Source: an uncultured Eggerthellaceae bacterium
GTDB taxonomy: Bacteria > Actinomycetota > Coriobacteriia > Coriobacteriales > Eggerthellaceae
Length of the DNA stretch: 40,060 nt
Assembly (NCBI GenBank): GCA_905234785.1
Contig: CAJOIP010000014.1
Location: 1-40,060 of the forward strand
Reading direction: 5' to 3'
The translations under genes and the position numbers were made by a program. A model generated the notes under the pieces. That model was not told where the DNA came from. It did no database searches and worked only from the letters and a program-made list of their open reading frames with translations. Positions 523-26,875 of this stretch are shown piece by piece (the first letter of the stretch is position 1; each line of letters starts with the position of its first letter).

Positions 523-557
523 CGATAATCAATTTCCTCCGAGGATATTGATTATCG
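523..557. repeat. PE1 palindromic repeat, single unit
   Basis: A 35-bp near-perfect palindrome starting at the base after the deformylase stop codon. Outer arms of 11 bp (523-533 and 547-557) are exactly complementary, and the centre CCTCCGAGG (536-544) is also palindromic, leaving one mismatch (534/546) and one central base. The same AATCA...CCTCCGAGG...TGATT design occurs as paired units at 15030-15088 and 26812-26875, so this is a dispersed family and not a one-off terminator. No T-run follows. Confidence 0.85.
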
Positions 558-14717: not shown

Positions 14718-15905
14718 ATGAGCGAAACGAAAACCAAAAGCGACCTTTCGCGCGCGTTCTCCGAAGACGGCGCGTTGAAAACCCACGTGGGCGGCCAAGC
14801 GCTGCTCGAGGGCATCATGATGCGCGGCAAGTACAACTGGTCGGTCGCCGTGCGCGAGCCCGAGGGCTCCATCTACCTCGAAGAGCACGACCTGGCGTAC
14901 GGCCAGGATAAGTCTGGCTGGCTGTATTGGCCCTTCATCCGCGGCTGCCGCGCATTCGTAGAATCGCTGGCGCTCGGCTACAAGGCGCTCTCCATCGCCG
15001 CCGAGCACGCATTCGTGGAAGAGGAAGAAGAATCAATTTCCTCCGAGGTAATTGATTCAAAATCAATTACCTCGGAGGAAATTGATTCGCAATTCTCGTG
15101 GAAGCGCGATTTCGGCAATCCTGACGAGATGATCGAAGCGCTGGGAGCGCAGCGCACGCTCGAAGTGGTGACGGAGCCCGAACCGATCCCCGCTGCGCCA
15201 ACTCGGGAACAACCTGAGAAGAAGCCGCTGCTCGGCGACAGGGAAATGGCCGTTTCCATGATTCTCGGGCTGGTGCTCGGCGTGGTGCTCTTCGTCGTGG
15301 CGCCGGCGTTCATCACGAACCTCGTCGTCGGCGAGTACGACGACCGCACGCTTTTGTGGAACATCGTCGACGGCATCCTGCGCATCGGCGTGTTCATCTT
15401 CTACATATGGCTCATCGGGCGCATGTCCGACATAAAGCGCATGTTCGGCTACCACGGCGCCGAGCACAAGACCATCCATTGCTTCGAGCACGGCCTTGAG
15501 CTCACGCCGGAAAACGCCCGCAGCTTCCCGCGCCTGCACGTGCGCTGCGGCACGGCGTTCCTCATCATGGTCATGATCATCGCGATCTTCGTGTACACGG
15601 TGGTGCCGCTGGGCCTTCTCATCGACGCATGGGGCGTGCCCGACGGCCCGCTGAAGCTCGTGCTCGTCATTGTCGTGCGCATCCTGCTCATGCCCGTCAT
15701 AGCCGGCATCGCCTACGAAATCACCGTGAAGTGGGCGGGAAGCCACCCCGACAACCCGCTTGTCAAGGTCATCCTCTGGCCCGGCATGCAGATGCAGTAC
15801 CTCACCACGCGCGAACCCGACGACGGGCAGATCGAGTGCGCCATCGCCGCCATGAAGCTCGTGCTCGAGCGCGAGCAGCGCGAGGAAGCCGCCGCGAGCG
15901 CTTAG
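14718..15905 (+). CDS. DUF1385 (YqhQ-like) membrane protein with an in-frame PE1 insertion
   Basis: 395-aa DUF1385 protein of unknown function. Family hallmarks are HVGGQALLEGIMMRG (residues about 23-37), the HGAEHKTIHCFEHG motif in the second half, and several transmembrane segments (about 175-195, 210-235, 270-295, 305-330). Usual length is about 300-320 aa. The excess lies in an acidic, proline-containing linker (about residues 98-170). Within it, residues 105-124 are encoded entirely by a 59-nt perfect hairpin, a double PE1 repeat. No Shine-Dalgarno precedes ATG 14718. topA follows 166 nt downstream. I infer that the repeat entered a tolerant linker without breaking the frame. Confidence 0.85.
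   Translation: MSETKTKSDLSRAFSEDGALKTHVGGQALLEGIMMRGKYNWSVAVREPEGSIYLEEHDLAYGQDKSGWLYWPFIRGCRAFVESLALGYKALSIAAEHAFVEEEEESISSEVIDSKSITSEEIDSQFSWKRDFGNPDEMIEALGAQRTLEVVTEPEPIPAAPTREQPEKKPLLGDREMAVSMILGLVLGVVLFVVAPAFITNLVVGEYDDRTLLWNIVDGILRIGVFIFYIWLIGRMSDIKRMFGYHGAEHKTIHCFEHGLELTPENARSFPRLHVRCGTAFLIMVMIIAIFVYTVVPLGLLIDAWGVPDGPLKLVLVIVVRILLMPVIAGIAYEITVKWAGSHPDNPLVKVILWPGMQMQYLTTREPDDGQIECAIAAMKLVLEREQREEAAASA
15030..15088. repeat. PE1 palindromic repeat, double unit, inside a coding gene
   Basis: Two inverted copies of the PE1 unit form a perfect hairpin: 28-nt arms at 15030-15057 and 15061-15088 around a 3-nt loop (CAA). Each arm is itself quasi-palindromic around CCTCCGAGG or CCTCGGAGG. The element is read through in frame as part of the DUF1385 gene, yielding SISSEVIDS followed by SITSEEIDS, a near-repeat peptide. 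Confidence 0.92.
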
Positions 15906-26811: not shown

Positions 26812-26875
26812 TAATCAATCACCTCGGAGGAAAATGATTATCACGGTAATCATTTTCCTCCGAGGTGATTGATTA
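26812..26875. repeat. PE1 palindromic repeat, double unit, intergenic
   Basis: Perfect 29-bp inverted arms (26812-26840 and 26847-26875) around the 6-nt loop TCACGG. Each arm is a PE1 unit with the CCTCGGAGG or CCTCCGAGG centre and AATCA/TGATT ends. It lies between the second degV gene and the dehydrogenase-like gene, and would place a very stable hairpin in the intergenic mRNA. No T-run follows, so a role in termination is unproven. Confidence 0.92.

Follow-up and report, generated by a model that had tools for sequence, protein, structure and literature searches.

The DUF1385 gene at positions 14718..15905 of the plus strand raises the question of how a perfect DNA palindrome comes to lie in frame within an otherwise intact protein gene. 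Palindromes that are read as protein have been described as an oddity of Rickettsia and Wolbachia, and a few intragenic REPs have been noted in other bacteria. The window, the whole stretch of 40,060 nucleotides that was analysed, is part of a 2.26-Mb MAG of an uncultured gut Eggerthellaceae bacterium (83 contigs, 97% complete; G000). The gene encodes 395 amino acids, matches Pfam PF07136 with E = 5.4e-83, and has orthologues in 50 of 61 genomes.

In exact agreement with the sequence-only reading, which had described a perfect 59-nt hairpin of two inverted repeat units, positions 15030-15088 form two arms of 28 nt (15030-15057 and 15061-15088) that are 100% complementary and separated by a 3-nt loop. 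RNA folding of the hairpin gives -43.4 kcal/mol (z = -14.6). Each arm is a 27-nt near-palindrome on its own, here called a PE1 unit. Unit A (15031..15057, plus strand) matches the unit pattern with 0 mismatches and reads ESISSEVIDS in phase 1, while unit B (15061..15087, plus strand), its exact reverse complement behind the spacer CAA (15058..15060), reads KSITSEEIDS; these are the near-repeat peptides that had been proposed for the two halves. The element corresponds to residues 105-124, and the frame 14718-15905 stays open throughout, so that, as claimed, no stop codon is brought in.

The unit is a symmetric 27-nt sequence with an odd centre and hard ends (AATC...GATT), described by the pattern AATCA.TT.CCTC[C/G]GAGG.AA.TGATT and the consensus AATCAATTTCCTCSGAGGAAATTGATT. 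The flanks show a symmetric base preference, their complementarity does not exceed chance, which leaves no stem beyond the 27 nt, and target-site duplications of 1-8 nt are not above shuffles. The outer AATCA/TGATT and inner CCTC/GAGG blocks are near-invariant, and the positions in between vary, often on one arm only, because of which a single unit usually has one mismatch in its stem. This internal mismatch weakens the hairpin of most singles (-7.2 vs -11.7 kcal/mol).

Within the window, matches to the unit are found at 527-553, 15031-15057, 15061-15087, 26813-26839 and 26848-26874, and none in 100 dinucleotide shuffles. The single unit at 527..553 lies 4 nt past a stop codon with co-directional genes on either side. 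The inverted doublet further downstream begins 5 nt past a stop codon with its first unit (26813..26839), of which the second (26848..26874) is the exact reverse complement, including private substitutions. The repeat thus recurs at both intergenic places where it had been noted, with the boundaries corrected from 523-557 to 527-553 and from 26812-26875 to 26813-26874.

A search of the whole MAG with the 27-nt unit, as had been proposed, returned 58 places at ≤3 mismatches; none are expected by chance, and the reversed control pattern gave 0. Stretches taken around every listed copy yielded 58 units at 52 sites. In the stretches taken from the sister species G004 there are 51 sites with 60 units, and a looser pattern finds 81 places in that genome. 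Among a collection of 84,980 species, the exact 27-mer occurs outside G000 in only one genome, the roe-deer jejunum Eggerthellaceae MAG RGIG4359, with match positions equal to those of G004. The 21-nt core has no exact match in viral contigs, and a phage or virus origin of PE1 was dropped.

DUF1385 has an acidic linker that is hypervariable within the genus, and the coding copies could in principle be ordinary linker sequence that is palindromic by chance, or an artefact of assembly. The genome-wide count refutes this explanation, whose probability is negligible: an almost identical DNA unit is present in six unrelated genes and at about 46 intergenic or gene-end sites, and the RecN and CarA sites are common to two independently assembled MAGs, with identical 27-nt DNA.

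Genes around the sites were called with our own simple codon-usage gene caller. Of the 52 sites in G000, 46 fall between genes or across a gene end, despite a coding fraction of about 0.87 in the DNA taken; only 4 sites are clearly internal, with 2 more in C-terminal tails (P about 3e-34). The element follows the upstream stop codon closely, at less than 30 nt in 33 of 38 measurable cases, and at 9 sites the AA of PE1 completes a TAA stop. One unit (L114:2998-3024) serves two genes: it provides the TGA stop of the gene before it and, ~10 nt ahead of the ATG of the gene that follows, a GGAGG ribosome-binding sequence. Convergent gaps are neither enriched nor depleted significantly (2/44 vs 26/218, P = 0.19).

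This placement, with 35 of 44 classified intergenic sites in co-directional gaps and very near the upstream stop, together with the stable hairpins, would suit an element that is kept for an RNA role, as an intercistronic hairpin stabilising or processing operon mRNA, with the in-gene copies as by-products. However, the co-directional share is near the genome baseline (161 of 218 gaps), and the internal mismatch described above weakens the fold of most singles. We regard selection for such a role as quite unlikely to account for the family, although an RNA role could be compatible with a mobile origin of PE1.

The claim that the element is dispersed and can be intergenic or protein-coding was borne out, with in-gene copies in at least six more genes. 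Besides DUF1385, PE1 is internal to RecN and CarA in both G000 and G004, to GltD in G000, and to ArsS and HypF in G004, while a MetN-like ATPase of G000 carries it near the C-terminus. At all seven in-gene loci the unit is read in phase 1, and whichever way round it lies this gives the acidic, hydrophilic peptide [E/K]SISSEEID[S/Y]. A stop interrupts phase 2, whereas phase 0 (NQFPPRKLI) occurs only at or near C-termini.

In RecN, CarA, GltD and HypF, relatives have a variable loop or linker of similar length at the PE1 position, and in ArsS a shorter loop (GYGMGGDLKL vs GYG-KSISSEEIDS-LKL). Alignment to solved homologues puts the CarA copy directly before the glutamine-amidotransferase part, the HypF copy between the zinc finger and the YrdC-like domain, and the RecN copy in a poorly conserved loop. 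Judged by the variable loops of relatives and these alignments, the in-gene copies occupy permissive surface loops or linkers. The predicted inserted peptide is most likely neutral.

A clean gap of 20 residues in related DUF1385 proteins, which the sequence-only reading had led one to look for, was not seen. The linkers of relatives consist of other sequence of about 12 to >50 residues, and the sister species carries one PE1 unit, with a compensated change (CAGTTT...AAACTG), in the same linker that holds two units in G000; unit B aligns with this lone unit. Likewise, none of the in-gene loci provided a clean empty site; in each case the loops of relatives are filled with other sequence and show no simple gap.

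Several of these proteins contain other insert-like sequences. CarA of G000 (L094:8999-10432) contains, besides PE1, another in-frame insert that differs from it and resembles an inverted repeat, located around residues 350-380: TTGTCAATCTGAGCGAGGCG...GGGATGACAA, which encodes the peptide CQSERGEESPISRRGRSLAYARDDKG and is lacking in G004. In the loop of G000 ArsS that corresponds to the PE1 loop of G004, ~44 residues are encoded in frame by another repeat, CHPEQSAHAPLTCHPERSAHAPLTCHPERSAQRGVEGSPRS (L211, L214; G000:C7:3129-4004). HypF of G000 likewise has a long in-frame insert with inverted-repeat-like DNA, GTAGGGGCGCACACCGTGCGCCC...GGGCGCTC, in the loop that holds PE1 in G004 (L206; G000:C17:52485-53315). 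Opposite the GltD copy of G000, G004 encodes KSASAGEADY (L209; G004:C126:23930-24610), whose DNA, AATCGGC...GCCGATT, is diverged with ends that still pair; it may be a decayed older element.

For 24 units of G000 an alignable locus was found in G004, and 20 of them aligned over the full unit, with an identity of 96.1% in the unit and 92.4% in the flanks. Many copies have thus been inherited at shared sites. In the RecN and CarA copies all 27 bases are identical between the two species. At two further pairs of loci (L103/L060 and L093/L119) one unit is present in G000 and two in G004. Altogether, G000 has 6 doublets and G004 has 9, and 9 of these 15 are perfectly complementary. The two arms of a doublet have private substitutions in common, which leaves 9 mismatches in the 15 doublets, compared with a mean of 34 and a minimum of 20 after permutation; this fits either the duplication, in inverse orientation, of a unit already in place or correction through the hairpin. 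Pairwise identity is lower among doublet units than among singles, with 0.89 vs 0.94 in G000 and 0.92 vs 0.95 in G004.

Units that are more conserved than their flanks, with near-invariant outer and central blocks and a one-sided variation between them that breaks pairing in most singles, would also be expected of a dyad-symmetric binding site for a protein, such as a nucleoid or chromosome-organising protein or a global regulator, with coding copies where the gene tolerates them. The ~58 sites may also be similar in number to the known sites of chromosome organisers. However, PE1 sites lie directly past stop codons and not upstream of promoters, the unit also occurs as long perfect inverted doublets, and the family does not extend beyond one genus, within which it turns over from species to species; in G005 the RecN loop contains an unrelated palindrome. 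On balance, a binding site appears unlikely as the explanation of PE1.

The extent of this turnover was seen in the comparison across the family. A related, diverged palindrome (AATC..TTTCCC...GGGAAA..GATT) is present in G006, G008, G010 and G014, and the related family overall is found in 6 of 138 genomes of the family, all in one genus; no PE1-related palindrome was found in the 123 genomes of other genera. The palindrome in the RecN loop of G005 is also 27 nt long and unrelated to PE1. Its dispersal was predicted from the RecN loop and then found: G005 has 49 places, and no other genome has more than 2. In the stretches taken from G005, 57 of 58 units are intergenic, the one in RecN being the exception.

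In the RecN loop, two species carry PE1 and a third carries a different palindrome family; in the ArsS loop, one sister species has PE1 and the other has another dispersed repeat. We therefore tentatively propose that, within this one genus, unrelated short palindromes repeatedly colonise the same permissive loops and replace each other there. The turnover of REPs might then be a regular source of new loop peptides in conserved enzymes.

A transposase gene flanked by PE1 was also looked for and not found. Y1 transposase genes (PF01797) are common in the genus; the PF01797 search gave no match in G000, G005 and G009, and no PE1 was present within the 0.5-1.5 kb taken around each of the four Y1 genes of G004. 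Two genes located between two units were considered by eye and rejected as a PE1 transposase, the one in L079 (14064-14846), which resembles an HTH regulator, and the one in L137, which resembles a small membrane protein. For three Y1 genes tested, the top match was NCBIfam REP_Tyr_transpos (REP-associated tyrosine transposase), below its cut-off.

RAYT-like genes with palindromes on their flanks are found in G002, G006, G007, G013 and G014, several with their own palindrome on both sides, and at least five different palindrome families surround Y1 genes in this one genus. A palindrome flanking a Y1 gene of G002 is of the G005-like type, and in G014 two AATC-type palindromes surround one Y1 gene. 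When the pattern of the AATC-type sister family was relaxed, it matched near Y1 genes of G014, G006 and G008, with 0 matches in 34 kb of other loci there. At six loci of sister species (L145, L151, L146, L147, L291 and L294) a RAYT-like Y1 gene has its own palindrome of 27-41 nt around it. As no Y1 gene was found beside PE1 itself, we infer its mobilisation by a RAYT from the sister families.

Taken together, PE1 is probably a REP-type dispersed palindromic element that is spread by a RAYT-like transposase and tolerated as peptide inserts. A RAYT-like HUH (Y1) transposase would move it in trans as a single-stranded hairpin, and only harmless insertions would persist, whether they lie between genes or are read as a peptide that the protein tolerates. 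Doublets like the one in DUF1385 probably formed when a unit already in place was duplicated in inverse orientation, or hairpin correction keeps their arms identical. Speaking against this explanation are the lack of a Y1 match in the MAG, of PE1 in the 0.5-1.5 kb taken around the Y1 genes of G004, of target-site duplications and of a clean empty site, and the fact that singles are more alike than doublet units.

The similarity to the Rickettsia palindromic elements (RPEs) that had been pointed out holds for the dispersal and for the occurrence both between genes and in frame inside them. RPEs are palindromes of 105-146 bp that are scattered through intergenic DNA and also lie in frame within conserved protein-coding genes (Ogata et al. 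2000, summarised in PMC2229807); for the RPE in gmk, translation and enzyme activity have been demonstrated (PMC2229807). PE1, a palindrome that is likewise in frame in RecN, CarA, GltD, ArsS, HypF and DUF1385, differs in size (27 nt, or ~60 nt as a doublet) and in its actinobacterial host, and its peptide is predicted from the sequence. Compared by size, host and behaviour, the best reading is that PE1 works like the RPEs and forms a separate, lineage-specific family.

Rickettsia is also not the only precedent, as intragenic REPs with GTAG or CGTC tags were published in 2013 for several bacteria, some of them in repair genes (Di Nocera et al. 2013, PMC3733652). These are palindromes of 20-40 nt, mostly located just 3' of genes and in some cases in frame, which occur as singles and inverted dimers; their ends supply stop codons, and different REPs are found at about the same recB site in two Xanthomonas species (PMC3733652). 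PE1 shares their size, placement 3' of genes, in-frame copies, inverted dimers and supply of stops, and its RecN loop parallels the recB site, whereas its consensus carries neither a GTAG nor a CGTC tag and its flanks vary. By definition PE1 is a REP, being a 20-40 nt palindrome with many copies that are mostly extragenic and near gene 3' ends. REPINs and RAYTs (PLoS Genet 2011, PMC3116915) are resembled in that the inverted doublets of PE1 form long hairpins with matching arms and that RAYT-like genes flanked by palindromes exist in the same genus. In contrast to REPINs, PE1 occurs mainly as singles, and these resemble each other more closely than the units of doublets do. No RAYT was found adjoining PE1, and the relaxed matches near Y1 genes of G014, G006 and G008 belong to the sister family.

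In line with the earlier statement, no description of such elements in Coriobacteriia was found in limited searches of the open-access literature. The mechanism and the kind of element are known in outline, while the family, the host class and the fact that different repeats have repeatedly used the same loops appear to be new. With one 27-nt unit, one peptide and at least six host proteins, PE1 is a compact, countable system. Sister species that differ by one vs two units at the same codons give a handle on how mobile repeats become peptide segments, and PE1 lets one ask whether different repeat families reuse identical permissive loops.
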